Assembly (NCBI GenBank): GCA_945949405.1
Contig: CAMFEP010000007.1
Span: 1-33,838, forward strand
Origin: Kiritimatiellales bacterium
GTDB lineage: Bacteria; Verrucomicrobiota; Kiritimatiellia; UBA8416; JAIOPI01
Reading direction: 5' to 3'
Length of the DNA: 33,838 nucleotides
Position 1 is the first letter of the stretch. Each line of letters begins with the position of its first letter. The notes under the pieces are model-generated. The model was given only the letters and a program-made list of their open reading frames with translations. It ran no database searches and had not been told where the DNA came from. Position numbers and translations under genes: made by a program. This document shows positions 15,179-32,591 of the stretch, in pieces.

Positions 15179-16249
15179 ATGAGCGGAAAGACACACAAAA
15201 TCGGGGTGATTGGCGGCGACGGGACAGGGCCGGAGGTGACGCGCGAGGCGATGAAAATCCTCGCGGTGGCGCAGTCGAAGTTCGGCTTCAAGCTGGACTA
15301 CACGAATTACGATTTTGGCGGGGCGCGCTATCTGAAGACGGGCGAGACGCTGCCCGACGCGGCGATCGAGGAGTTCCGCAAGCAGAACGCCCTGTTCCTT
15401 GGCGCGATCGGGCACCCGGATGTGAAGCCTGGAATTCTCGAGGTGGGCATCCTGCTCAAGGCACGGTTCGCGCTGGACCAGTACATCAACCTGCGGCCGG
15501 TGAAATTGTATCGCGCAGAGGACTGCCCGCTAAAGGATAAGGAACCCAAGGACGTGGATTTTGTCGTGATCCGCGAGAACACAGGCGGCATTTATACGGG
15601 CGTGGGCGGCGTGGTGCAGAAGGGCACGCAGATGGAGATCGCCACGCAGGTCATGATTTATGGGCGGCCGGTCGTGGAGCGGTGCGTGCGGTTTGCATAC
15701 GCGTACGCGCGGCGGCGCAACAGCGCGAAAAAGATGCTGACGCTGGTCCACAAGAGCAACGTGCTGACGCATGCGGGCGACCTGTGGGTCCGCACGCACA
15801 AGGAAGTCGGCGATCGCGATTTTCCGGACGTCAAGCAGGATTACAACCACGTGGACGCGGCGACGATGTGGTTCGTGAAGCAGCCGGAGTGGTACGACGT
15901 GATTGTGACCGAGAATCTTTTTGGTGACATCATCACGGACCTGGCGGCGATCATCCAGGGCGGGCTGGGGATCGCGGCGGGCGGCAACATCAATCCCGAG
16001 GGGGTTTCGATGTTTGAGCCGATGGGTGGGAGCGCGCCGAAATACACGGGCCAGAATGTCATCAATCCGCTCGCGGCGATCGCCGCGGCGGGAATGATGC
16101 TCGACACGCTGGGCGAGCGCACGGCGGCGCAGGCTGTCGACAAGGCCCTCACGACGGCATTGAACAGCGGGAAGATCAAATCGCTGGCGGCCGGGCGAAT
16201 GGGGATGGGCACGACGCAAGTCGGCGATCTGGTGGCGGGGTTGGTGTAG
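15179..16249 (+). CDS. leuB: 3-isopropylmalate dehydrogenase-type beta-decarboxylating dehydrogenase
   Basis: A 356-aa cytoplasmic enzyme of the isocitrate/isopropylmalate dehydrogenase family; the likely reaction is oxidation and decarboxylation of 3-isopropylmalate in leucine synthesis. Seen: IGVIGGDGTGPEVTREA (start), FALDQYINLRPVKLY with the substrate Arg, VVIRENTGGIYTG, TLVHKSNVL with the catalytic Lys, and VTENLFGDIITDLAA with metal-binding Asp residues. The LDQYINLRPVKLY form is typical of a LeuB branch in actinobacteria and related phyla. Homoisocitrate or tartrate dehydrogenase cannot be excluded. A purine-rich GGGGGAAGGG precedes ATG 15179. It is followed 46 bases later by asd, suggesting an amino-acid biosynthesis operon. 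Confidence 0.87.
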   Translation: MSGKTHKIGVIGGDGTGPEVTREAMKILAVAQSKFGFKLDYTNYDFGGARYLKTGETLPDAAIEEFRKQNALFLGAIGHPDVKPGILEVGILLKARFALDQYINLRPVKLYRAEDCPLKDKEPKDVDFVVIRENTGGIYTGVGGVVQKGTQMEIATQVMIYGRPVVERCVRFAYAYARRRNSAKKMLTLVHKSNVLTHAGDLWVRTHKEVGDRDFPDVKQDYNHVDAATMWFVKQPEWYDVIVTENLFGDIITDLAAIIQGGLGIAAGGNINPEGVSMFEPMGGSAPKYTGQNVINPLAAIAAAGMMLDTLGERTAAQAVDKALTTALNSGKIKSLAAGRMGMGTTQVGDLVAGLV

Positions 16250-16295
16250 ACGATTGATAATTTGAGATTGCCGAGTGAAGATTGGGGAAGCGGAC

Positions 16296-17303
16296 GTGAG
16301 CCAGCAATACAATGTCTGCGTAGTCGGGATCGGAGCGGTTGGGACGGAAATGGTGCGGCTGTTGGAGCGGCGCAAGTTTCCGATGAAGTCCCTCACGATT
16401 CTGGCGCGCAGCGCCCGGCAGGAAGTCATCGATGGAAAATCGTACCCCGTGAAGGTGGCCGAGCCGTCGGCTTTTGACGGCATGGATTTCGCCTTTTTCG
16501 CGGGCACCGAGGGCGCCAAGGGCGCCTCGCAGACTTTGGGGTGGGAAGCCGTGAAGCGCGGTTGCGTCGTGATCGACAACGGCGACGACTTTCGCATGGA
16601 CCCGCGCGTTCCGCTGGTGATCCCTGAAATCAATTCGGAGGCCCTTAAGGGGCACATGGGGCTCATCGCGAATCCGAACTGCAGCACCATTATTGCGCTG
16701 ATGCCGCTGGCGCCCCTGCACAAGGCGGCGACGATCAAGCGGATCGTGGCGAGCACCTACCAGGCGGTGTCGGGAACCGGCGCGCCGGCGGTGAAGGAAC
16801 TCGAGGCGCAGGCGAAGGCCTGGGCCGCGGGCCAGGCGCTGCCGCGCGAGGTCTATCCGCATCAGATTCTGTTCAACGTGATCCCGTCGGTCGGGTCGTT
16901 CAAGGACGACTCGGGCGAATCGACCGAGGAAATCAAGATGCGCAAGGAAACGCACAAGATCCTGGGCGACGCGGCGATCCGCATCGGCAACACCTGCGTG
17001 CGCGTGCCGGTGGTAAACGGGCACAGCATCGCGATCAACGTGGAGTTTGAGAAGCCGATGACGGTGGAAATGGCGCGTGTGCTGCTGGCGAAGGCGCCGG
17101 GCGTGAAGCTTGTGGACGACCCAAAGTCGGCGGCCTATCCGATGCCGGTGAATGCCTCGGGCGAGTACGACGTGGAGGTCGGGCGCATCCGTAAAGATCA
17201 GAGTTGCGACAATGGCCTCGTCCTCTGGTGTTCTGGCGACAACATCTGGAAGGGCGCGGCACAGAATGCGATCCAGATCGCGGAAGCGTTGATAGGAATC
17301 TGA
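16296..17303 (+). CDS. asd: Aspartate-semialdehyde dehydrogenase
   Basis: A 335-aa enzyme reducing aspartyl phosphate to aspartate semialdehyde for lysine, methionine, threonine and diaminopimelate. Nucleotide motif VVGIGAVGTEMVRLL lies at the N-terminus. Catalytic Cys129 is in ANPNCSTI, substrate Glu lies in STYQAVSGTGAPAVKELE-type sequence, and the active-site His is in RVPVVNGHS. GTG 16296 is preferred over the more upstream GTG 16275 because GGGGAAG (16284-16290) sits five bases before it. Pairing with leuB occurs widely in bacteria. Confidence 0.94.
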   Translation: MSQQYNVCVVGIGAVGTEMVRLLERRKFPMKSLTILARSARQEVIDGKSYPVKVAEPSAFDGMDFAFFAGTEGAKGASQTLGWEAVKRGCVVIDNGDDFRMDPRVPLVIPEINSEALKGHMGLIANPNCSTIIALMPLAPLHKAATIKRIVASTYQAVSGTGAPAVKELEAQAKAWAAGQALPREVYPHQILFNVIPSVGSFKDDSGESTEEIKMRKETHKILGDAAIRIGNTCVRVPVVNGHSIAINVEFEKPMTVEMARVLLAKAPGVKLVDDPKSAAYPMPVNASGEYDVEVGRIRKDQSCDNGLVLWCSGDNIWKGAAQNAIQIAEALIGI

Positions 17304-20343: not shown

Positions 20344-20505
20344 TTATTGATCCATGCCGGGGGAAAGGCCGGGGATGGCGGGGCTGCCTTCCCAGGGTTG
20401 GGGGGCATTCCACGGCATGTCGGATTCGGTGGAGGCGCAGCCCGCGGCGGTCAGGCAGGCCGTCAGCAGGAGGATGCGGCCAGCGAACTTGAGAAGCGTT
20501 GGCAT
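20344..20505 (-). CDS. Small lipoprotein, 53 aa
   Basis: MPTLLKFAGRILLLTACLTA followed by AGCASTES: a basic start, a hydrophobic segment and a lipobox (TAAGC), so the mature protein is a lipid-anchored peptide of about 29 residues rich in Pro and Trp (MPWNAPQPWEG, then SPAIPGLSPGMDQ). Its ATG (20505-20503) directly follows the stop of the upstream coiled-coil gene (TAAATG), which implies coupled translation; no separate ribosome site is clear. It lacks similarity that I recognise. The pairing with the coiled-coil protein, and the neighbouring ExbBD locus, suggest an envelope role. Confidence 0.82.
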   Translation of the reverse strand: MPTLLKFAGRILLLTACLTAAGCASTESDMPWNAPQPWEGSPAIPGLSPGMDQ

Positions 20506-21627
20506 TTAGAAGAACGCGATATCGCCGGTTTCGACGGCGGCTTGTTGCCAATCCACCAAGACGTCGGCGATGGCGAGCTTCTCGTCGCGCTTGAGTTGCA
20601 CCAGGCGGACCTTGGAAATGTAGGAATCCCCGCGCTTAAGGAACAGATCAATGGTGGGGAAGCCGGCGATATTCTTGGCGGCGAGTTCGGCGCGCATGGC
20701 GTCGATTTCCGCGAGGGCGACGTCGTTGAGTTGCAGCACGACATAGCTCCAATCGCCGTTGACGGAGACGACCTTGCCCTTGGGGCCGGCTTCCATTTTC
20801 ACGAGGCCCTCCGACGAGCCGATCATATTCGGATCTTTGTTTACGGCGCCCTTCTTGAGGTCCGCGATCTGCAGGCGCTGGGCGGTGATGGTTTCGTCGC
20901 GCAGCTTGATGTCATCGGCCTGGGTCTGGATCGTCTGTTCTTTGGCGGCGACATCCTCCTCGAGGGCCAGTTTTTCGCTTTCGAGGCTGGCGACCTGGCC
21001 TTCCAGGTTGCGTTTTTCATCTTCCAGGGTGGCGATTTGATTGTTCAGGTCGGTGATCTGGACCAGGGAGCGGCGCTGGCGCTGTTTGCCGTCGTTAAGT
21101 TCCTCGATGGTCTTGACGAGTTCCTCGCGCACGGCGGCGAGCTGGTGGCGGGTTTTGTTGAGTTGGTCCAGTTCGTAGGTGGCGGCGTCGCTGATGCGCT
21201 TGATCGTGGCGGCCATGGTGTTGTCGCCCTCGGTTTCGAAGAGCCCGGTGGCGGGATTCTTCGCGGGCTTGCCGGAGATCGGGTCCACCTTGTAATAGTT
21301 CATCAACTCTTCGCGGCGGACGGTCACGAGGGGCTTGTCCGCGGCTTCGAGGTGGAGCGGGTAATCCTTCCAGAACGCGGCGCGCTCCGGCTCGGTGACT
21401 TCCTGGGCGGCGACCTCACCGATGTCTTTTTCGGTGAAGTTGGCGGGGGTCGTGGCGGGGTCGGCGGGGGTTTCCAGCAAGGCGGCCACCTGCATCAGGC
21501 CCTTTTCCAGGCTCTGGGTGCGCCCCATCAGGAGCTGACGCTTGCCGAAGAGCATGATGCCCAGCACCAGTGCGGCAGCGCTCAAAACCAACAAGACAAC
21601 GGTGAGAATCTGGAGCAGTTTTCTCAC
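20506..21627 (-). CDS. Membrane-anchored coiled-coil protein with small C-terminal beta-type domain
   Basis: A 373-aa protein of unknown function. An N-terminal anchor (LLQILTVVLLVLSAAALVLG) is followed by a linker, a long coiled coil (about 150-265; LEDEKRNLEGQVASLESEKL), and a C-terminal region (about 280-373) with GKVVSVNGDWSYVVLQLN, DLFLKRGD and GDIAFF, spaced like FlgT-C-type small beta domains. It is anchored in the inner membrane with the bulk outside, by inference. GTG 21627 is preceded by GGAGAGGGAAG. It diverges from the big TPR gene across 187 bases and is followed directly by the lipoprotein. A spacer or bridging role across the periplasm is a reasonable guess only. Confidence 0.85.
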   Translation of the reverse strand: MRKLLQILTVVLLVLSAAALVLGIMLFGKRQLLMGRTQSLEKGLMQVAALLETPADPATTPANFTEKDIGEVAAQEVTEPERAAFWKDYPLHLEAADKPLVTVRREELMNYYKVDPISGKPAKNPATGLFETEGDNTMAATIKRISDAATYELDQLNKTRHQLAAVREELVKTIEELNDGKQRQRRSLVQITDLNNQIATLEDEKRNLEGQVASLESEKLALEEDVAAKEQTIQTQADDIKLRDETITAQRLQIADLKKGAVNKDPNMIGSSEGLVKMEAGPKGKVVSVNGDWSYVVLQLNDVALAEIDAMRAELAAKNIAGFPTIDLFLKRGDSYISKVRLVQLKRDEKLAIADVLVDWQQAAVETGDIAFF

Positions 21628-21779
21628 GGGCTTCCCTCTCCGGTTTTTACGTCCGGTCTTACGCCCGCGCCGGTCGCGGAATTAAACGAAATCGTGTATT
21701 TCCACAAATTGTGACTTTGTGAGCATAGGCTTGGCGTGGGAAGCATGGCAAGCGCGAAAATGCGCGAAGCCAAAAAGCG

Positions 21780-21808
21780 TTGACGGTTCGGGAGCGCTCG
21801 TGTAGACC
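21780..21808 (+). promoter_or_regulatory. Candidate promoter giving a leaderless TPR transcript
   Basis: TTGACG (21780-21785), 17 bases, then TAGACC (21803-21808). The -10 ends six bases before ATG 21815, so transcription would begin at or next to the start codon. No ribosome binding site lies upstream of that ATG. The -35 is strong and the -10 weak. Confidence 0.5.
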
Positions 21809-21814
21809 CGTCGT

Positions 21815-24800
21815 ATGATCTTGCGCACCATCGCTCGTGCCCTGCGATCCGCTTCTGGGGCGGGTCTTTTGGTCCTGGTGCTCGGGTCTCCGGCCGCGCT
21901 CCGCGCCCTGGCGCAGGGGGCCGCAGTTGCCGCGGGCGGACCTGCGGCCGAGGAAATGAAATACGTCGACGGGCTCAATCGGTTGGGCCTGCCGAACTAC
22001 GCGGAGCTGGTGTTGGCGCGGCTGGGCAGCGGGCCTGAGGTCAAGGCGCGGCAACTGGACGCCGCGCTTGCGCGCGGGGAGTTCGACAAGGTCAAGGCGA
22101 CGATCGACGCGGAGCTGGATCAGAACAGCCTGGCCGCCTGGATGATGCGGCTGCGCCTGGCCGATGCGTATTTTGCGTGGGGAAAATATCCGGAGTGCCG
22201 CGCGCTCTACGACGGGCTGTTCGCCAAATTTGCGGGGAACATCCCTGAGGACTTCAAGGAATTTTACTACAACAGCGCTTACGGCTATGCCCAGATGCTG
22301 GTGCTGATGAACGACCCGGCGGCGGCGATCGAGGCTTACCGGGCGGGGCTCAAGGCCAACCCGCCGCGCGATACGCAGCGGCAGTTTTTGGGCGGGCTCG
22401 GCGACCTGCTGATGCGCCGGGCGGAGAAGACCACGGGGGCGGAGCAGCAGAAATACATCACCGAGGCCGATGAAATTGCCGGCCAGTTGCTCTGGATTCA
22501 GGACTTGTGGTTCGGGCAGGCGATCATTCTCAAGGCCCACGCCAAGATGCTGCAGGGGGATGTCGACGCGGCGATGAAGCTGGTGGACGACTACCGCGAC
22601 GAGTTGGTCGGGTTGGACCAGATCCTGGCTGAGCAGTCGACCGAGGACGAGGACTTTACGCGCTTGAGCCCGATGGCGCAGGCGCGCTACCTGCTTGGCG
22701 CGATCCTGCTCGACGAAGCCAAGAAAATTCTGGCGGCGGGCGGCGACCGCAAGCGCGCCGAGGAATTGCTGGTGGGCAAGCAGGAGCAGCGCACGGGCAA
22801 GCCGCCGCGCCAGCTCCCGGGCGCGGTTCAGCATTTCGGCAACGTGTACATCAATTATCCCAATACCCAGTGGGCGGCCGAAGCCGGCGAAAAATTTGAT
22901 GAAACCAAGCAATTGTTGGCGGATAAATTTGGCCGCACGGTCAAGACGACCCTGACGCCGGAGCAGCAGCGCAAGGTCGAGGCGGAGCAGATCAAGGCGG
23001 CCAAGTCGCTGTTAAACCAGCAGAAATACGCGGAGGCAGCCGAGCAATACCAGGGCATGCTGCGGCGCGCGCCGGAGGGTGACTATGCGCTGATGGCGCT
23101 GACCGATTTGGGCACCTGCTACGTCGAATTGAAGGATGATCTCTATGCCGACGTGGTGATTCGCTACATTGCGGAGCGCTTCAACAAAAATCCGAAGTTC
23201 AGCGCCGGCACGCGCACGCGGGCGGGGGATGTCGTGCTGGGCTTTGGCAGCATGTACAACGCGCGCAAGATGCCGGAGCGCAAGGACGCGATTTACGAGA
23301 CCTTCTTCGACAACTTCAAGACTCACGCCCTTGCCGCGCAGTTGCTGAACAGTTTTGGCGACCGGCGCCTCGCCACCAACGATTATGCGGGGGCGCTGCG
23401 CTATTACCAGCGCGTTGCGCGGGACCACACCAATTCGCCGTCCTCGTTCGTGGCCATGAGCAAGATGGCCCAGTGCTACGAAAAGCTGGGCGACGCGACC
23501 AACGCCTTGCGCACGCTGGAGTTCTACGCGACGCGTGCCGGCCAGGAAAACCGCCTCAATTCCGAATTGATCCGCATCCTGTACCGGGTTGCCACGACGC
23601 ACCGGGAGATGGGCATTTCGCATTTTCCGGCGGCGGTGGCGCGGTACAATGAGATCGACAAGCGCCTGACCGAGAAGCGCGAGGCCTATCAAACCGGTGC
23701 CGAGGAGGCCAAGCAAAACCAGGACATCCAGGAGGCCGCGCTCTACTTCAAGGCCGCGTGCTTCGCGCGCGTGACGCCCCCCAAGGACAAGCCGGAGAAT
23801 ACGTACAAGGAGATGGCGCTGGGGTTCTATCTGAAGCTGGCCGACGCCTATCCCAAGTCCAAGCTGGCGCCGACGGCCTTGAGTCAGGCGGGGACGCTGT
23901 GGACGGTGCTGGGCAAGGCGGAAGAGGCCCAGGCGGTGTTTTCGCGGCTCAAGACGCAGTATCCGGAGGCGAAGGAAGCGAAGAACGTGGACTTCATTCT
24001 CGCCAACAACCTGCTCAAGCTGGGGCGGCGCAAGGAGGCCATTCCGCTCTTCAAACAGATGTTCTCCAGCGGCGCCCAGTATACGCCCGGGCAAATGCTG
24101 GCGGCCGGCCGCGAACTGTTCCAGGCCAAGGAATACGAGATTGCCGTGGAGGCTTTCGATCAAGTGCTGGCCAAGGCGCCCCCGGAAGAGCGCACACTGA
24201 TCGAGCCGACGCTGGCCCTCAAGGGGCGGTCGCTGGTGGCGCTGGGGCGTTACGCGGAAGGCGTCACCGCGCTGGACGCGCTCTTCGCGCAATTTTCGAA
24301 GACCCCCTACACGGTGGAATGCCAGGTTGCCTTGAGCAAGGCCTGCGCGGAGCTTGGCGGCGTGGAGGCGGATGCCACCGCGCGCGTGAATCTGTTCAAC
24401 AAGTCCGTGACGGCGATGAAGACCGTCATGCAGCACGACACGAACACCGTGCGCCGGGGTGAGGCGACGGTGCAGGTGGGCAGCATCTATGAACTCAAGG
24501 CCAAGGCCGAGGCGGCGCACGGGACGCCCGAGCGGGCAGCGGAATTTCGCGATCAGGCGATCGCCAGCTACCAGATCCTGACCTTGTTCGAGGATCCGCG
24601 GGATTTGGTGATGCGACCGTATCTTGACGAGGGCTACCACCGCTGCCTGGCGTTGTATCTGGAAGCCGCGCGCTGGAAGGATCTGTCGGCCGATGCCGGC
24701 GCCTATCTCGCGGCATTCCCTGACGGAAAATATGTGCTCGATATCCGGCAGTGGCGCAGCACCGCGAATGCGCATCTTGCCGCGGAAGGTGGCGCGCCCG

Positions 24801-24853
24801 AGGCCGCGGCGCCGGCGGAACCGAGCGCGGAAGTCGCGCCTCCGAATTCGTGA
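21815..24853 (+). CDS. Large secreted tetratricopeptide-repeat protein
   Basis: A 1012-aa protein with a signal peptide (RSASGAGLLVLVLGSPAALR, cleavage likely after ALA near residue 33). The rest is almost wholly helical repeats of TPR type; clear units include KYPECRALYDGLFAKFAG, KYAEAAEQYQGMLRRAP, DYAGALRYYQRVARDH, KAEEAQAVFSRLKTQYPEAK and KEYEIAVEAFDQVLAKAP. It ends in an Ala/Pro/Glu-rich tail. Such proteins scaffold multi-protein complexes in the periplasm or at the outer membrane (compare YbgF/CpoB next to Tol-Pal, much smaller). It is first in a seven-gene rightward cluster with ExbB/ExbD. The next gene starts 14 bases after its stop. Length is unusually great for a Tol/Exb-linked TPR protein. 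Confidence 0.93.
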   Translation: MILRTIARALRSASGAGLLVLVLGSPAALRALAQGAAVAAGGPAAEEMKYVDGLNRLGLPNYAELVLARLGSGPEVKARQLDAALARGEFDKVKATIDAELDQNSLAAWMMRLRLADAYFAWGKYPECRALYDGLFAKFAGNIPEDFKEFYYNSAYGYAQMLVLMNDPAAAIEAYRAGLKANPPRDTQRQFLGGLGDLLMRRAEKTTGAEQQKYITEADEIAGQLLWIQDLWFGQAIILKAHAKMLQGDVDAAMKLVDDYRDELVGLDQILAEQSTEDEDFTRLSPMAQARYLLGAILLDEAKKILAAGGDRKRAEELLVGKQEQRTGKPPRQLPGAVQHFGNVYINYPNTQWAAEAGEKFDETKQLLADKFGRTVKTTLTPEQQRKVEAEQIKAAKSLLNQQKYAEAAEQYQGMLRRAPEGDYALMALTDLGTCYVELKDDLYADVVIRYIAERFNKNPKFSAGTRTRAGDVVLGFGSMYNARKMPERKDAIYETFFDNFKTHALAAQLLNSFGDRRLATNDYAGALRYYQRVARDHTNSPSSFVAMSKMAQCYEKLGDATNALRTLEFYATRAGQENRLNSELIRILYRVATTHREMGISHFPAAVARYNEIDKRLTEKREAYQTGAEEAKQNQDIQEAALYFKAACFARVTPPKDKPENTYKEMALGFYLKLADAYPKSKLAPTALSQAGTLWTVLGKAEEAQAVFSRLKTQYPEAKEAKNVDFILANNLLKLGRRKEAIPLFKQMFSSGAQYTPGQMLAAGRELFQAKEYEIAVEAFDQVLAKAPPEERTLIEPTLALKGRSLVALGRYAEGVTALDALFAQFSKTPYTVECQVALSKACAELGGVEADATARVNLFNKSVTAMKTVMQHDTNTVRRGEATVQVGSIYELKAKAEAAHGTPERAAEFRDQAIASYQILTLFEDPRDLVMRPYLDEGYHRCLALYLEAARWKDLSADAGAYLAAFPDGKYVLDIRQWRSTANAHLAAEGGAPEAAAPAEPSAEVAPPNS

Positions 24854-24867
24854 AAGGAAGCGTTCAT

Positions 24868-25779
24868 ATGTCTACGAATCAAAGCGGCATGCGTCAGTCA
24901 GGAAGGGGTCGCGCTTGCGCGTCCCCTGTGAAACAAGAGGACTTCGCAAGCGAAGCCCCTACAGGGCCTGCGATCGTTGCGGCTGTCCGTCATGCCGGCA
25001 CCATGCCGCGCCTGCTGCTGGCCGCAGCCATTGCGCTGCTGGCCACGCACATGACCGTCCGGGCCGCCGCGCCCGGCAAAATCATCAAGGCACCGGGTGG
25101 GCAGCAGATGGTGGGCAACATTTCGTGGAAGGGTGGCGCGAAGCAATACGAGGTGTCCACGGGTGCCGGGGTGATGACGATTGTGCCGCTCAATCAAGTG
25201 GGCAGCATCGAAGTGGCGCCGCCCGCGAATCTGGCGGCGGCGGTTGCGGCGGCGCGCGCGGGCGATGGCAGCCAGACGGCGGCACTGACCCAGATCGTGG
25301 ACAGCTATCTGATGCTGGGGCCGGATCTGACGGCGATGCGCTGGCTGGCGGAATTGCAACTCAAGCGTGGCGAGGGCAAGCAGGCGCTGGAAAAATTCAC
25401 CCGCGTCATGGAGAACCGCCAGCCCGGCAGCGTGCCGGCGGAGGTGGTGCGGTCCTACTGGGGCGTGCTGCTGGATGCGGGGAAGACCTCGGAATTGCGC
25501 GAGCAATTGAAGTCCGCCATCGAAAAAGCACCGCGTCCGCAAGCCGCGGCGGCCCAGATGATGCGCGGGGAAGTGGATATGCGCGATGCCAAGTATCGTG
25601 ACGCGCTGGTGGACGGGTTTTTGCGCACGATCGTGCTCTTTGGCGACGTCAAAGAAGTCCAGCCGGAAGCGCTATTCAAGGCGGCGAAGTGTTTTGACGA
25701 ACTGGGCGAAAGCCAGAACGCGGAAAAGATGCGGCGCCGGCTTTCCCAGGATTATCCGGACAGCCCCTTCGCGAAGTGA
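24868..25779 (+). CDS. Exported TPR protein with repeat-derived N-terminal extension
   Basis: A 303-aa protein. From residue 46 (MPRLLLAAAIALLATHMTVR, ATG 25003) it looks like a normal exported protein: signal peptide, a short N-terminal domain (GQQMVGNISWKGGAKQYEVS, then MTIVPLNQVGSIEV), and TPR-like helices (GKQALEKFTRVMENRQPG, KCFDELGESQNAEKMRRRL). The only good ribosome site, AAAGGAAG at 24853-24860, precedes ATG 24868, which adds 45 residues translated from a palindromic repeat (24905-24966). So either the extension is made and hides an internal signal peptide, or translation starts at 25003 without a ribosome site. Partner of the preceding large TPR protein by position. Function unknown. 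Confidence 0.85.
   Translation: MSTNQSGMRQSGRGRACASPVKQEDFASEAPTGPAIVAAVRHAGTMPRLLLAAAIALLATHMTVRAAAPGKIIKAPGGQQMVGNISWKGGAKQYEVSTGAGVMTIVPLNQVGSIEVAPPANLAAAVAAARAGDGSQTAALTQIVDSYLMLGPDLTAMRWLAELQLKRGEGKQALEKFTRVMENRQPGSVPAEVVRSYWGVLLDAGKTSELREQLKSAIEKAPRPQAAAAQMMRGEVDMRDAKYRDALVDGFLRTIVLFGDVKEVQPEALFKAAKCFDELGESQNAEKMRRRLSQDYPDSPFAK
24905..24966. repeat. Two-hairpin palindromic repeat inside a coding frame
   Basis: Hairpin 1 pairs GGGGTCGCGC (24905-24914) with GCGCGTCCCC (24917-24926). Hairpin 2 pairs GGACTTCGC (24939-24947) with GCGAAGCCC (24950-24958). CCCTGT (24924-24929) also pairs with ACAGGG (24961-24966). It is open in the frame of the exported TPR gene. Similar style to 30649-30700. 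Confidence 0.75.
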
Positions 25780-25794
25780 GGGACGGAGAGGATT

Positions 25795-25843
25795 CACCAC
25801 GGAGACACGGAGGCACGGAGAGCTTTTGTGTGTCCCCGTGGTG
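25795..25843. repeat. CACGGAG-type inverted repeat
   Basis: Arms of 14 bases (CACCACGGAGACAC at 25795-25808; GTGTCCCCGTGGTG at 25830-25843) pair with one mismatch. It fills most of the 80-base gap upstream of the zinc-ribbon/GspG-like gene. Related segments occur at 30338-30378, 30551-30571 and 32604-32630. Confidence 0.8.
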
Positions 25844-25859
25844 AGTATCCCAAATTCCC

Positions 25860-26498
25860 GTGAAACTGCGCTGTCCTTACTGCAAGACGATCTTCTCTGA
25901 ATTTCAGGAAGGCTGCTGCCCGGCTTGTGGCAAGGGTGTGCGCCGGCCGGAGCCCAAAAATTCGACGCGCAAGGCCAAGCCCAAATCCATGCTTGCCAAG
26001 GGACCGCGGCGCATGCCGCCCCGGCCGCCGCTGGTCATGTTACCCCTGTATATCTTTGGGGGGCAGCCGCGGCGGTTGCTCTGGCTGATTGTGATCATCG
26101 GCGTGATTGTGGCGCGGATGCTGTTCATCCAGGTTCAGACCGGAGAAACCGGCGGGCCGCAGGTGTCGCCGCGTACGCAGCGTACCCTCGAGGAATTGAA
26201 GGTCCTGCGCACCGCGCTCGAATGGTTCAGTTACCACTGCGAGCGCTACCCGACCACGGAAGAAGGGCTGAAGGCGCTGGTGCGCAATCCCGGAATTTCC
26301 GCGTGGCGGGGATTTTATATCGAGTTTTTGACGCCGGACGTGTGGAGTCATCCCTATCAATATGCCTTCACCAACAATACGGTGATGCTGTTTTCCATGG
26401 GGTCGGACGGCGTGGTGGGAACGGCGGATGACCTGGCGTCGCCGGATCCTGATCTCAAGGCGCTCATGGAGCGGATTTTGCCGGAGGGGGCGGAGTGA
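25860..26498 (+). CDS. Zinc-ribbon membrane protein with GspG-like pseudopilin domain
   Basis: A 212-aa protein with an odd architecture. An N-terminal zinc ribbon has Cys5/Cys8 (CPYC) and Cys20/Cys23 (CPAC). A basic Pro-rich stretch follows, then one membrane helix (about 73-92, LLWLIVIIGVIVARMLF). The C-terminal domain (about 105-205) resembles the type II secretion pseudopilin GspG: ERYPTTEEGLKALVRNP, DVWSHPYQY and SMGSDGVVGTADDL, including the Asp-rich calcium-site loop. It lacks a prepilin peptidase signal, so it is not a standard pilin; topology predicts the zinc ribbon in the cytoplasm and the GspG-like domain outside. The GTG start at 25860 has no ribosome site. It lies between TPR and ExbB genes. 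Confidence 0.85.
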   Translation: MKLRCPYCKTIFSEFQEGCCPACGKGVRRPEPKNSTRKAKPKSMLAKGPRRMPPRPPLVMLPLYIFGGQPRRLLWLIVIIGVIVARMLFIQVQTGETGGPQVSPRTQRTLEELKVLRTALEWFSYHCERYPTTEEGLKALVRNPGISAWRGFYIEFLTPDVWSHPYQYAFTNNTVMLFSMGSDGVVGTADDLASPDPDLKALMERILPEGAE

Positions 26499-26759
26499 GG
26501 GGGCTGGGGGAGCCTTGCGCCAATGCATCACATGCAGGAGGCAGGGCGCGGGCGCTGCACGCGCCGCACAGATCGGCGGGTCCGGCGGCCCCGCCCTACC
26601 GCGGCCTGTTACGCAAAGACGCAAGGATTGGCGGATTCAAAATCCGCCTGTCCCTCGCCGGGCTTGGTGTTGACTTGCGGCCCCCGGGTATGCGAGCCTG
26701 ATTCCGTTCCCGGCGACATGTTAAAGGGAAGCGTTGCGACGACAAACGAGGATCGGAGC
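26499..26759 (+). promoter_or_regulatory. Gap before exbB-like gene: hairpin and possible promoter
   Basis: This 261-base gap holds GC-rich dispersed-repeat-like DNA (around 26577-26604), a perfect hairpin GGCGGATT-CAA-AATCCGCC (26630-26648), and a TTGACT hexamer (26670-26675) with only a poor -10 (GAGCCT, 26694-26699). The ExbB-ExbD part may therefore have its own promoter. Evidence is weak. Confidence 0.35.
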
Positions 26760-27563
26760 ATGAAACGAATCATCCTGCTGGTAATCACCCTGTGTGCGTT
26801 TGGTCTGGCCCTGCCGCCGCTGCTGGCCCAAGAGGCGGAAAAGACCGATGCGCCGGCCGCCGCCACGCCCCATCTTGAGACCGAAGGGGGCGGAGAAGTT
26901 CCCGCCGCCGCCGCCCACAAAGGCGGACTGATCACCATCATCTGGAAGTCCGGCTGGTTCGGCGTGATGATCTGGCTGATGCTGATATTCTGTCTGGGCG
27001 TGGGGGTTTTCCTGGTCGTGGACTCCTACCTGACCATCCGGGTAAAGGCGATTGCGCCGGTGGAATTGGTCAACGACGTTCGCACGGCCATGCAGGAAGG
27101 GGATTTGCTCAAGGCCATCAACCATTGCGAGCAAAACCCGGGGCCGCTGGCGAACATCCTCAAGGCCGGCTTTGGCAACGTGGAAGAAGGATTTGAGGTC
27201 ATTCAGGACTCCGTCAGCGTGGCGGCGGACATCGAGAGCGAAAAAATGCTTTCGAAAGTGACCTATTTGAGCGTCATTTCCAATGCGACGCCGATGCTGG
27301 GGCTGATCGGCACGGTGCAGGGCATGATTTTCGCGTTCGGCACGCTGGGCACCACGGAAGCTGGCGCGGCGCAGCAAGCGATGCTGGCGCTGAACATATC
27401 CCACGGCTTGTGGGCCACGGCCGTGGGGCTGACCACCGCCGTACCGGCCACGGTGTATTACTTCTACTTCAAGAACAAGGCCAGTTCGATCATTCTGGGA
27501 ATGGAAGCGCTGACCCTCGACGTGATCAAGACGCTGCGGAATGTGGAAGTCGTCGACGAGTAA
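26760..27563 (+). CDS. MotA/TolQ/ExbB proton channel protein
   Basis: A 267-aa inner-membrane channel subunit that uses the proton gradient. After an N-terminal signal-like segment (MKRIILLVITLCAFGLALPP) and an Ala/Glu-rich linker comes the first channel helix (WFGVMIWLMLIFCLGVGVFL), a cytoplasmic region, and the conserved pair of helices with NATPMLGLIGTVQGMIFAFG and HGLWATAVGLTTAVPATVYY. These carry the family Thr/Gly pattern lining the channel. The extended N-terminus with a periplasmic segment is common in ExbB of PVC and Bacteroidetes. ATG 26760 has GAGGA eight bases upstream. The next gene, an ExbD, starts 39 bases after its stop. Confidence 0.94.
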   Translation: MKRIILLVITLCAFGLALPPLLAQEAEKTDAPAAATPHLETEGGGEVPAAAAHKGGLITIIWKSGWFGVMIWLMLIFCLGVGVFLVVDSYLTIRVKAIAPVELVNDVRTAMQEGDLLKAINHCEQNPGPLANILKAGFGNVEEGFEVIQDSVSVAADIESEKMLSKVTYLSVISNATPMLGLIGTVQGMIFAFGTLGTTEAGAAQQAMLALNISHGLWATAVGLTTAVPATVYYFYFKNKASSIILGMEALTLDVIKTLRNVEVVDE

Positions 27564-27602
27564 GTCGCCAGCGTCCCGCGGGCGCAGATTCGGATCGACG
27601 CC

Positions 27603-28028
27603 ATGCGTAAACAAGAAGAACTACCCCAGTCGGGCAATCTGACCGCCATGATCGACGTGGTGTTTCAGATCATCATCTTCTTTGTCTGTACGGCCAATTT
27701 GCAGGATTCCGGTCTGGATTCGCGCATCAAGCTGGCCATGGCGCCGCACGGCAAGGTCGAGACTAAGAAAGACCCCCTGCAGGTCGTTATCAATGTAGAC
27801 AAATCGGGGACCATCTCCATTGCCCGGACTCCGCTGACGCAGGCGGAACTGGCGAGCGTGTTGCGGAAGTCGGTCAACGAGGCGAAGCGCTACGGGGGCG
27901 AAGTTCCCGTGGTGATCAGGGCGGATGGCGGGGCGTCGCATCAGATGGTGCGGCAGGCCATGGACATCAGCGCCGCGAGTGGCATATGGAAAATCAAGAT
28001 TGCCGCGTTGAAAGAAAAGGGCGACTGA
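27603..28028 (+). CDS. ExbD/TolR family protein (first copy)
   Basis: A 141-aa partner of ExbB. Short cytoplasmic N-terminus, then a single membrane helix with the essential Asp18 (NLTAMIDVVFQIIIFFVCTA), then a periplasmic domain (LQVVINVDKSGTISIARTPL; EVPVVIRADGGASHQMVRQA) of normal ExbD/TolR fold. The Asp carries protons through the motor. It differs strongly from the following ExbD copy, so the motor may contain a mixed dimer. Confidence 0.93.
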   Translation: MRKQEELPQSGNLTAMIDVVFQIIIFFVCTANLQDSGLDSRIKLAMAPHGKVETKKDPLQVVINVDKSGTISIARTPLTQAELASVLRKSVNEAKRYGGEVPVVIRADGGASHQMVRQAMDISAASGIWKIKIAALKEKGD

Positions 28029-28043
28029 CGGGACGGGTGTGCC

Positions 28044-28454
28044 ATGGCGAGGAAACGACGCGAAAATCACGAGACCCCGGGCGAGTTGAACCTGACCGCC
28101 ATGATCGACGTGGCCTTCCAGTTGCTCAATTTCTTCGTGATTTCCTCGCACCCGATGGACGTCATGACCAACATGGATATTTTCCGGCCGGCGCCGGAAT
28201 CGGAGATCACGGAGCCGCCCCCCGTCGACATCACGATGCTCGAAATCATGGTGCATGCGAACGGGTACGCGATCCAGAAGCACAATGTGCGTTTCGAGGA
28301 ACTGGATCGCCAACTCACCAAGCTGGCAGCCACCAGCAAGAACGTGTCCGTGGTGATCAAGTGCACCGGGGATTCGCCCCATACCGGGCTCGTCAACGTG
28401 CTGGATCTTTGTTCCAAGGTCAAACTCACCAAGCTGGCCGTATTCAGCATGTAA
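28044..28454 (+). CDS. ExbD/TolR family protein (second copy)
   Basis: A 136-aa protein with the same layout as the upstream gene: membrane helix with Asp22 (LNLTAMIDVAFQLLNFFVIS) and a periplasmic domain (VSVVIKCTGDSPHTGLVNVL). The helix-following segment is different (HPMDVMTNMDIFRPAPESEI), rich in Met and acidic residues. It starts 15 bases after the first ExbD and ends 36 bases before the TonB-like fusion gene, so all four genes are probably one transcript. Confidence 0.92.
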   Translation: MARKRRENHETPGELNLTAMIDVAFQLLNFFVISSHPMDVMTNMDIFRPAPESEITEPPPVDITMLEIMVHANGYAIQKHNVRFEELDRQLTKLAATSKNVSVVIKCTGDSPHTGLVNVLDLCSKVKLTKLAVFSM

Positions 28455-28490
28455 TCCGATGCGCCACGGAAATAAATCCGCACTGAATTC

Positions 28491-30269
28491 ATGAGCGAAC
28501 AACTTCCAAAACCGGATAGCGGCCTTCCTCCCGTGCATGCCCAAAAAACGCTGCGCGACATGATGGGCAGCGAGAGCTTCAAGGAATACATCGCCAAGAT
28601 TCGCCACGGCCTGAAGCAGCCGAAGGACTCCGGCGAGTACAAGTATGCGATTCACCAGGTGGTGCGCGTCTGGTCCCCGATCGCCAGCGTGGCGCTGCCC
28701 ATTCTGCTGGTGCTCGCCGTGATGCTCGCGCCAGAGCAGAAGCACGAGGCCGCCAGCACCTTCGAAATCACGATGATGGACAACGACGCGGTCGAGAAGC
28801 TGGACGACATCGAGGAAATCGAACCGCCCAAGCCGCCGGATGAATTTGAGCCGCCGCCGCTGGAGGAATTCACGCCCGAAGACATCCAGAAGATGAATCC
28901 GGACGATATTGTCAGCGGCGCGGCGGGCCCGAGCGTGGGGGCGGCGGCGGGTCCGTCCACCACGGGGGCCAGCGAGTTCAGCCCGCAACCCGCGGCCTTC
29001 GACAGCGTGGCGATGATCAAGAGCCCGATCAAGATGACCGGCATTTTTGGCAGCCGCACGCCAGGTGCGCGCGGCAGCGCGCTGGCCCAGTATGGCGGTG
29101 GTGGCGGCGCGGGTGGCGCGGCCACGGAGCATGCGGTCTATCTGGCGTTACGCTGGCTCAAGAAATACCAGGAACCGGACGGCAGTTGGTCCACGGGGTC
29201 GGGAGGCGGAGAGAACCAACATGACGGCGCGCGGCCAGCCATGACGGCGCTGGGGCTGCTGACATTTCTGGCGCATGGCGAAACGCCGGCCTCGGAGGAG
29301 TTCGGCCAGACCGTGGAGCGCGCAATCAAGTGGCTCGTGGCGGCACAGGATCCGAGTACGGGGCACTTCAAGGGTTCTGACAACCATGATTACTGCATGC
29401 CTATCGCGACCTACGCCTTGTGCGAGGCGTTTGCGATTACGCGCATTCCGATGGTGAAGGCGGCGGCGGAGAAAGCGGCGCTGGCGATCGTCAAGGGCCA
29501 GAATCCCTCCGGGATGCTCTGGAATTATAATTTTGATCCCAAGGCGGAACTCAAGGCGAACTCCAACGCGGCGGACCGCAACGACCTGTCCTACGCGGGC
29601 TGGTGCATGCAGGCGCTCAAGGCGGCCGGCATGGCGGGGCTGGAAGTCGAGGGACTGGAGGAGGCCAAGCGCAAGGCGGTCCAAGGAACGAAAATCATGG
29701 GCGTGGCGAATGCAGATGGTTCGCGGGCGTTTGGCTATGGGCGCACAGGTGGCGAGGCCTATGGCCCATGGGAAATCACCGGCGCGGGTGTGCTTTGCCT
29801 CCAGTTGCTGGGCGCGGGAAAGTCGAAGGAAGCACAGGACGGCCTGCTGTGGCTCAAGCGTGCGACGTGCGAGTGGGCAAATCCGTGGATGCTGGACCAG
29901 GACAAGGACGGCAAGCCTTCGGGGAATCCGATCTATCACTGGTACTACGTCACGCAGGCCAAGTTCCACGCGGGTGGCGCCTATTGGACCGACTGGAACA
30001 AGCAATTTTCTCCACAGCTCGTGAAAAACCAGATCATCGTTCAGAATGCCATCCAGGACGACAAGGGCCAGCTGGTGGACATCGGCTATTGGAAGTCCGC
30101 CAGCCCGACGGAATTCTGCCAGTCCCATGTCTACAACACGACGCTCTGCGCGCTGATGCTCCAGGTCTATTACCGCTATCTGCCCACCTATAAAGCGCCA
30201 GAGGACGTCGAAGAGGGCGACACGACGCTGTCCAACGAAAGCAAAGACGTGGACATCGAAATCCTGTAG
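28491..30269 (+). CDS. TonB-like N-terminus fused to terpenoid-cyclase-fold alpha toroid
   Basis: A 592-aa protein. Residues 1-60 are cytoplasmic; 61-80 is a membrane helix (WSPIASVALPILLVLAVMLA). Residues 81-140 are acidic and proline-rich (IEEIEPPKPPDEFEPPPLEE), as in TonB. After a Gly/Ala/Ser-rich linker ending IFGSRTPGARGSALAQYGGG, residues 212-575 form repeated helical hairpins of the prenyltransferase/squalene cyclase type, with QW-like motifs (KKYQEPDGSW, GQNPSGMLW, NADGSRAFGYG). The proton-donor motif DxDD of squalene-hopene cyclases is absent, so no cyclase reaction is expected. Its position after ExbB-ExbD-ExbD suggests that this protein takes the TonB role, with the toroid as the energised periplasmic domain. 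Confidence 0.9.
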   Translation: MSEQLPKPDSGLPPVHAQKTLRDMMGSESFKEYIAKIRHGLKQPKDSGEYKYAIHQVVRVWSPIASVALPILLVLAVMLAPEQKHEAASTFEITMMDNDAVEKLDDIEEIEPPKPPDEFEPPPLEEFTPEDIQKMNPDDIVSGAAGPSVGAAAGPSTTGASEFSPQPAAFDSVAMIKSPIKMTGIFGSRTPGARGSALAQYGGGGGAGGAATEHAVYLALRWLKKYQEPDGSWSTGSGGGENQHDGARPAMTALGLLTFLAHGETPASEEFGQTVERAIKWLVAAQDPSTGHFKGSDNHDYCMPIATYALCEAFAITRIPMVKAAAEKAALAIVKGQNPSGMLWNYNFDPKAELKANSNAADRNDLSYAGWCMQALKAAGMAGLEVEGLEEAKRKAVQGTKIMGVANADGSRAFGYGRTGGEAYGPWEITGAGVLCLQLLGAGKSKEAQDGLLWLKRATCEWANPWMLDQDKDGKPSGNPIYHWYYVTQAKFHAGGAYWTDWNKQFSPQLVKNQIIVQNAIQDDKGQLVDIGYWKSASPTEFCQSHVYNTTLCALMLQVYYRYLPTYKAPEDVEEGDTTLSNESKDVDIEIL

Positions 30270-30761: not shown

Positions 30762-32591
30762 ATGGCCGTTGCATCCCGTATCCGTGTGCTGCCGGAACAC
30801 GTCGCGAATAAGATCGCGGCGGGTGAGGTGGTGGAGCGCCCGGCCTCGGTGGTGAAGGAGCTTGTCGAAAACGCCGTGGATGCGGGGGCCACGCAGATCG
30901 ATGTGGCGATTGTCGCGGGCGGGCGCAAGCGCATCGCCGTGAGCGACAACGGCAGTGGGATGAACCGCGACGACGCGCTGCTGTCCATTGAGCGCACCGC
31001 CACCAGCAAAATTCGCGATGTGGACGACATCGAGCACATCCGCACGCTGGGCTTTCGTGGAGAAGCGCTGGCGGCGATTGCGTCCACCTCGCGGTTCCGT
31101 GTGACGACCTGCGCGGGCGAAGGCGAGCCGGGCACGGAGGTCAGCATTGTGGCGGGCAAGGTGCAGGACGTGCGCGAGGTTGGGCGGCCCGTGGGCACGA
31201 CGATGGAGGTGCGCGACCTGTTTTTTAACATTCCCGCGCGCCGCAAATTTCTGCGTTCGCACCAGACAGAAATGGGGCATGTGCGCAACGTGTTCCTCGT
31301 GCAGGCGCTGGCGAGCAGCCAGATCGGGATGAGCCTCACGGTGGACGGGCACGTCCTCTACCGACTCGCCCCGGCGGAGGCCCTGACCGACCGGCTGCGC
31401 GATCTCTTCGGGCCGGACTATCTCGCGGGACTTGTGCCCGTGGAGGCGCGCGGCGGGGCGGTTGGCGTAACAGGGTATGTGAGCCGGCCCGGGGTGACGC
31501 GCGCCGATCGCGAGGAGCAATATGTATTTGTCAACGGGCGCGCCACGTCCGCGCCGACGATTGCCTTTGCGATTCGCGAAGGCTACCGCGGCGCGCTACA
31601 GAAGGATCGGCATCCTTCCGTGTTTTTGTTTGTGACGCTGGATCCGGGCGAAGTCGACGTCAACGTCCACCCGACGAAGCGTGAGGTGCGTTTTCGCAAT
31701 TCCGGCGCGGTGCGCGATGCGCTGATCGCTGCGCTGGAGGCGGCGCTGGCGGGGGCGGGAAGCGGCGGGGGCCCGCCGCCATCCGGCGCACCGGCGGTGC
31801 CCGCGGCGCCGGCCTGGGCCGCGGAGCAGATGCACATCGAGGGATTGCCGCCGCCGCGCGCCTTTCATTATCCGCGCGCCGCGCAGCCGCCGGCCGACGA
31901 TGCCGGACCCGGGTTTGCGGGTGGCGTTGCCGCGCTAAACGGTGATGGACAGGAATCCGACCCCGGGCGCGACGCGCCCGTCACGGCGACTGCGCCGCAA
32001 GCGCAGACGCCGTGGGCCTGGTGCCGTGTCGTGGGGATGGTCGGCGGGCAGTATGTGCTGCTGGAAACCGAGGACGGCATGGTGATTATGGACCCGCGCG
32101 CCGCGCACGAACGCGTGCTCTACGAAAAATTCCTGGCGGATGTCGCGCGCCACAACGTGCCGGGACAAAATTTATTGATGCCGGAGTCGGTCGAATTGCG
32201 CCCGCCGGATGCGGCGCGGGTGCGCAAGCATTTGGACCTGATGAAGGCGATGGGTTTTGGCATTTCCGAATTTGGCGGGGATACGTTTGTGGTGGATGCG
32301 CTGCCGGCCTATTTCGCGGAAGCCTCGGCGCAGGTTTTATTAGTCGAGGTGGCGGCGGGGATCGAGGCGGCGGGCCCGCGGCGCGGCACCGGGCGCTGGC
32401 GCGAGGAGCTGGTGGCGCAGGCGGCCTGCCGTGCCGCCGTCAAAAGCCGCGACCGTTTAAGGCTCGAAGAATTGGAGCAACTCGTGATCGACCTTGCGCG
32501 TGCGGAAATGCCCTACACCTGCCCGCGCGGGAGACCGACGCTGATCTTTACGTCGCTCAAGGAGCTGGAGAGGAAGTTCGGGAGAGAATAG
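30762..32591 (+). CDS. mutL: DNA mismatch repair protein MutL, endonuclease motifs altered
   Basis: A 609-aa MutL. The N-terminal GHKL ATPase is clear: ANKIAAGEVVERPASVVKEL, ENAVDAGAT, SDNGSGM, and RTLGFRGEALAAIAS; a Pro/Ala-rich linker (about 325-420) leads to the dimerisation domain. In MutL endonucleases that domain has DQHA-x2-E and CPHGRP. Here these read DPRAAHE (444-450) and CPRGRP (587-592): His has become Arg in both, while Glu450 and Cys587 remain. Nicking is therefore doubtful. No mutS or mutH is in the window. No ribosome site is obvious before ATG 30762, but the protein aligns from its first residues. Length is normal. Confidence 0.95.
   Translation: MAVASRIRVLPEHVANKIAAGEVVERPASVVKELVENAVDAGATQIDVAIVAGGRKRIAVSDNGSGMNRDDALLSIERTATSKIRDVDDIEHIRTLGFRGEALAAIASTSRFRVTTCAGEGEPGTEVSIVAGKVQDVREVGRPVGTTMEVRDLFFNIPARRKFLRSHQTEMGHVRNVFLVQALASSQIGMSLTVDGHVLYRLAPAEALTDRLRDLFGPDYLAGLVPVEARGGAVGVTGYVSRPGVTRADREEQYVFVNGRATSAPTIAFAIREGYRGALQKDRHPSVFLFVTLDPGEVDVNVHPTKREVRFRNSGAVRDALIAALEAALAGAGSGGGPPPSGAPAVPAAPAWAAEQMHIEGLPPPRAFHYPRAAQPPADDAGPGFAGGVAALNGDGQESDPGRDAPVTATAPQAQTPWAWCRVVGMVGGQYVLLETEDGMVIMDPRAAHERVLYEKFLADVARHNVPGQNLLMPESVELRPPDAARVRKHLDLMKAMGFGISEFGGDTFVVDALPAYFAEASAQVLLVEVAAGIEAAGPRRGTGRWREELVAQAACRAAVKSRDRLRLEELEQLVIDLARAEMPYTCPRGRPTLIFTSLKELERKFGRE

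Follow-up and report, generated by a model that had tools for sequence, protein, structure and literature searches.

An ExbB/ExbD operon conserved in Kiritimatiellia encodes a TonB-like protein with a terpene-cyclase-type toroid: a putative trans-envelope machine

The stretch of DNA analysed here (the window) comprises 33,838 nucleotides of a Kiritimatiellales bacterium (assembly GCA_945949405.1, contig CAMFEP010000007.1). Nine genes at positions 20344-30269 had been described in an earlier note, from the letters alone, as a candidate envelope machine powered by ExbB and ExbD. An ORF check and Pfam/NCBIfam searches confirmed that the nine ORFs are real, lie where they had been placed and carry the domains described. 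They are given below together with the parts of the last protein; "core" marks the six genes that recur in relatives.

20344-20505, minus strand: P0001, a 53-aa lipoprotein (lipobox LTAAGC) encoded after the coiled-coil gene
20506-21627, minus strand: P0002, with a TM segment, a coiled coil and a C-terminal beta domain; divergent neighbour, not core
21815-24853, plus strand: TPR1 (P0003), a 1012-aa secreted TPR protein with YbgF/CpoB-like repeats (Pfam/NCBIfam); core
24868-25779, plus strand: TPR2 (P0004), a secreted TPR protein with an N-terminal beta-type region; alternative ATG at 25003; core
25860-26498, plus strand: P0005, a GspG-like zinc-ribbon/pseudopilin-type protein (Pfam); lineage-specific insertion, not core
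26760-27563, plus strand: ExbB/TolQ-like proton-channel subunit (P0006) with an N-terminal signal peptide (Pfam, ExbB tree); core
27603-28028, plus strand: ExbD1 (P0007), with the Asp of MIDVVFQ (Pfam); core
28044-28454, plus strand: ExbD2 (P0008), with the Asp of MIDVAFQ (Pfam); core
28491-30269, plus strand: putative toroid transducer (P0009), 592 aa, with a TM helix, D-box-like strand, Pro-rich arm, linker motif and alpha/alpha toroid; core
28668-28730, plus strand: TM helix of P0009, about residues 60-80, S-x3-P (S-x3-H in part of the class relatives)
28761-28781, plus strand: D-box-like strand FEITMMD of P0009, residues 91-97 (pattern from PMC10907165)
28998-29108, plus strand: linker motif of P0009 around SPIKMTGIFGSRTPGARGSALAQYGGGGG, residues 170-206, common to ECF/anti-sigma vWA proteins
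29112-30197, plus strand: alpha/alpha toroid head of P0009, residues 208-569 (AlphaFold2, Foldseek, profile search)

TPR domains are found in both P0003 and P0004, and P0003 reaches 86.2 bits against YbgF/CpoB, below the cut-off of 90.1. P0005 matches T2SSG (8.8e-17) and weakly a zinc ribbon, P0006 matches MotA_ExbB (1.3e-21), P0007 and P0008 match ExbD (6.7e-20 and 2e-18, respectively), and the match of P0009 to the squalene-cyclase toroid is weak. The start of ExbB has been revised from 26523 to the ATG at 26760, which opens the signal peptide MKRIILLVITLCAFGLALPPLLAQ, and that of TPR2 from 24751 to either 24868 or 25003. A dispersed repeat with 27 matches in its own genome lies at window positions 24895-24985, within the N-terminal coding region of TPR2, which is consequently about 40 residues longer than in the relatives, or else is forced to start anew at 25003. 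Intergenic gaps in the plus-strand unit range from 15 to about 261 bp, and thus the tight spacing noted earlier holds for some junctions and not for others.

The gene content of motor-linked loci in relatives of the same class was obtained from neighbourhoods clustered without prior labels. In all 33 of these loci the genes follow the order TPR1-TPR2-ExbB-ExbD1-ExbD2-toroid, so that the arrangement is not a product of chance. The complete ordered set is also present in 40 of 80 database loci from named genomes, and it is found in the cultured Pontiella sulfatireligans F21 (L157), in P. desulfatans (L162) and in a Victivallales bin (L146). Of 57 relatives, 52 have a homologue of P0009, in most cases with TM helix, arm and toroid all present. 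Across the phylum, members of the toroid family were detected in 83 of 195 genomes, and outside the class many of the matches are to the toroid domain alone.

That all nine genes constitute one machine, as first proposed, is very unlikely. The coiled-coil/lipoprotein pair does adjoin TPR1 divergently in about 12 of the 33 loci, but the GspG-like gene is confined to the window and a congener (L084), that is, to two of them. The coiled-coil protein, which is present in 54 of the 57 relatives and mostly in a single copy, is unlinked outside the taxonomic order and is found in two genomes without a toroid protein (G031 and G050). Furthermore, leuB and asd (window 15179-17303) are also conserved upstream neighbours of the operon, and the pair may therefore reflect plain synteny. 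Conserved gene order, co-occurrence with the toroid and linkage to ExbB/ExbD hold for the two TPR genes and fail for the GspG-like gene, the linkage failing also for the coiled-coil gene; the conserved unit across the class is six genes rather than nine, apart from the Ton, Tol and vWA motors. Downstream of the toroid gene, 19 of the 33 loci have MutL (window 30762-32591), which with leuB and asd places the operon within a conserved housekeeping block. No Foldseek match to the fold of the coiled-coil protein was obtained at E ≤ 0.001. An anti-phage motor of the Zorya type was considered and rejected, PADLOC giving weak coiled-coil matches to P0002 alone.

The motor subunits retain the Thr and Asp residues of the proton channel. 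The pore Thr residues of GTV and AT are kept in the window ExbB, and the channel Thr is kept in the ExbBs of nearly all toroid loci. Both window ExbDs have a single TM helix with the channel Asp (MID), which is likewise kept across nearly all loci. At the Glu of the ExbB E-A-L motif, equivalent to E176 of E. coli ExbB, most toroid-operon ExbBs have Gln and those of the window and L084 have His, and this counts against a machine in which force is transmitted to the toroid protein. In the ExbB tree, the toroid ExbBs form one clade (100/99) apart from those of Ton and Tol. It is sister to the vWA ExbB clade (97/89), a relation that is provisional in view of the long-branch warning given by the tree tool.

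Among the window ORFs scanned, no TonB_C, TolA, Pal, TolB or receptor was detected at the locus, as had been noted. This absence is a property of the locus and not of the clade, since TonB_C is found in 48, a receptor plug in 53 and an OmpA/Pal domain in all 57 of the relatives. The genome of the window itself, which is 76% complete, has three receptors and no TonB_C match; both congeners have TonB_C. In relatives the Ton loci are separate, often with two ExbB-like genes, ExbD and TonB, and so are the Tol-Pal loci (TolQ, TolR, TolA, Pal) and the vWA motors. Ton in the relatives has an ExbB and ExbD of its own; together with the ExbB clade, this bears out the earlier view that the motor is distinct from Ton and Tol.

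The toroid protein is built like TonB, with a single TM helix followed by a D-box-like strand and a Pro-rich arm, which agrees with the earlier suggestion that it is the likely moving arm. In the AlphaFold2 model a single helix spans residues 48-79. The D-box of TonB, a strand of hydrophobic/hydrophilic pattern, is the part bound by ExbD (PMC10907165). FEITMMD in the window protein matches this pattern and fits a D-box-like strand as a candidate site for pairing with ExbD. The pattern follows the TM helix in 27 of 50 homologues, against a mean of 2.7 and a maximum of 9 in shuffled sequences, and occurs elsewhere in the linker in one of the 50. The docking motif in the TM helix of TonB and TolA is S-x3-H-x6-L-x3-S (PMC12905483). 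The window helix has S66-x3-P70 in its place. Among the 50 class homologues S-x3-H is kept in 12 and Pro replaces His in 29, the window variant being of the latter kind; this replacement also counts against force transmission. As a natural variant, it provides a handle on the requirements of motor coupling.

The head of P0009 is an alpha/alpha toroid according to AlphaFold2 and Foldseek. A profile comparison with squalene-hopene cyclase (1gsz) gives an E value of 1.7e-18, and a single-sequence search of the PDB with P0009 gave no match. Like members of the squalene-hopene cyclase family, the homologues carry a QW-type motif (50 of 50); unlike them, they lack the catalytic DxDDTA (0 of 50), and the head is anchored in the membrane behind a Pro-rich arm. 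Terpene cyclase activity was considered and rejected on account of the missing motif, and the toroid is probably a head without such activity. A complement-type thioester was also discarded, its motif not being found in the homologues. An enzyme acting on glycans or terpenoids, presented to its substrate by the motor, is nevertheless suggested by the Foldseek matches, most of which are alpha/alpha barrel sugar enzymes (AGE, GH88, GH76) besides squalene cyclase, and by polar and aromatic residues that may line a pocket, of which E312, Y301, Y416 and Y485 are invariant and D365 and S367 nearly so. Such an enzyme appears unlikely, because DxDDTA and the thioester motif are absent, the best sequence match covers just about 80 residues of squalene-hopene cyclase, and the Foldseek matches are at the level of fold only, with an rmsd above 6 Å.

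The same head occurs away from the motor. In G009, at the locus L090:5893-10306, an ECF sigma gene is followed by the gene of a 1253-aa protein in which zf-HC2, linker motif and toroid are fused to a YfbK-type vWA domain. A comparable set occurs in G033, where the zf-HC2-like part has a gene of its own. At L214:2692-7298 an ECF sigma gene is followed by an anti-sigma (zf-HC2) protein with the same linker motif and toroid, and in L043 toroid proteins with a zf-HC2-like N-terminal start lie behind an ECF-sigma-like gene. Since the linker-toroid module serves alongside a motor as well as a sigma/anti-sigma pair, ligand binding is favoured as the property that underlies both uses. The toroid might accordingly be a sensor whose head, on binding an envelope ligand, controls proton flow through ExbB/ExbD or downstream signalling, and the fusions to zf-HC2 and vWA as well as the orphan copies adjoining no motor are in keeping with this. 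Such a role is improbable for the operon protein, whose D-box-like strand is a feature of coupling, as is the S-x3-H motif that some members of the class keep.

Gene content and order, the ExbB clade and the motifs are read from the sequences, and from these we infer how the proteins may associate and move, what the TPR proteins may do and what the head may bind. A six-gene machine driven by the proton motive force across the envelope, with the toroid protein as a force transducer bearing a new head, is the reading that we regard as rather probable. In this machine, ExbB (a pentamer by homology) and ExbD1/ExbD2 (likely a heterodimer) would form the motor, the TM helix of the transducer would dock on ExbB, and the D-box-like strand just outside the membrane would pair with the periplasmic domains of ExbD. 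The Pro-rich arm would span the periplasm to the terpene-cyclase-like toroid, probably devoid of cyclase activity, as the working head, and the two secreted TPR proteins would act as CpoB-like periplasmic adaptors between head and envelope. The ligand would be an envelope glycan, lipid or protein. The recurrence of the six-gene order in relatives and database loci, the presence of the fusion in most relatives, the frequencies of the D-box and S-x3-H, the retained channel Asp and Thr, the separate ExbB clade with the other motors at other loci, the absence of DxDDTA and the closeness of TPR1 to YbgF/CpoB all count for the transducer machine. Besides the substitutions in the TM helix and in E-A-L, the many toroid copies away from any motor count against it, as does the occurrence of the toroid in ECF/anti-sigma proteins, which implies that pulling is not a necessity for this head.

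The layout is partly anticipated. Force transducers with a vWA domain instead of TonB have been published for PVC and other bacteria (Williams-Jones et al., 2025; PMC12204202), in the PVC group as part of an operon TPR-TolQ-TolR-TolR. The toroid operon has the same composition, namely a TPR gene, one TolQ-like and two distinct TolR-like genes, and a transducer of TM segment, linker and globular head without a TonB or TolA domain. It differs in that the head is a toroid and no vWA domain is present (Pfam, AlphaFold2), in that the His of SHLS kept in vWA transducers is Pro in the window protein, and in that vWA loci are ordered ExbB-ExbD-TPR-vWA and lie apart, both in the window's own genome and in relatives. 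Ton shares the motor subunits and the stem of the transducer but ends in TonB_C where the toroid stands here. Tol-Pal shares motor homologues and a TPR protein resembling YbgF/CpoB but has TolA, TolB and Pal, which the toroid locus lacks. The text of PMC12204202 does not mention a toroid, cyclase or squalene, and among published open-access papers no report joining ExbD with squalene or prenyltransferase, on Ton in Kiritimatiellae or on TtpC with TPR was found. New here is the toroid head on the motor. The ExbBD/TolQR engine thus seems to have acquired at least one further type of working head, which is broadly conserved in a class whose members retain ordinary Ton and Tol systems as well. It is conceivable, though somewhat doubtful, that Kiritimatiellia and some relatives possess a further class of proton-driven machine beside Ton, Tol-Pal and vWA, in which a repurposed terpene-cyclase toroid would hold on to an envelope ligand while a motor with heterodimeric ExbD pulls it; ECF/anti-sigma systems would have taken up this head too, as their external part. 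Its function can be tested in P. sulfatireligans F21, a cultured type strain carrying the set.

The window's own genome has three ExbBs, at the toroid locus and at two others. One of these (L035:8327-13710; ExbB-ExbD-TPR-vWA) encodes a transducer that keeps the S-x3-H motif in its TM helix, and apparently belongs to the vWA family of 2025 (PMC12204202). At the other (L034:2451-7062), TPR-ExbB-ExbD is followed by a 263-aa membrane-anchored protein without a Pfam match, possibly another transducer. A second toroid-motor arrangement is seen in a congener (L088:3-7448) and also in L089, where TPR-ExbB-ExbD precedes a 1297-aa protein with a C-terminal toroid.
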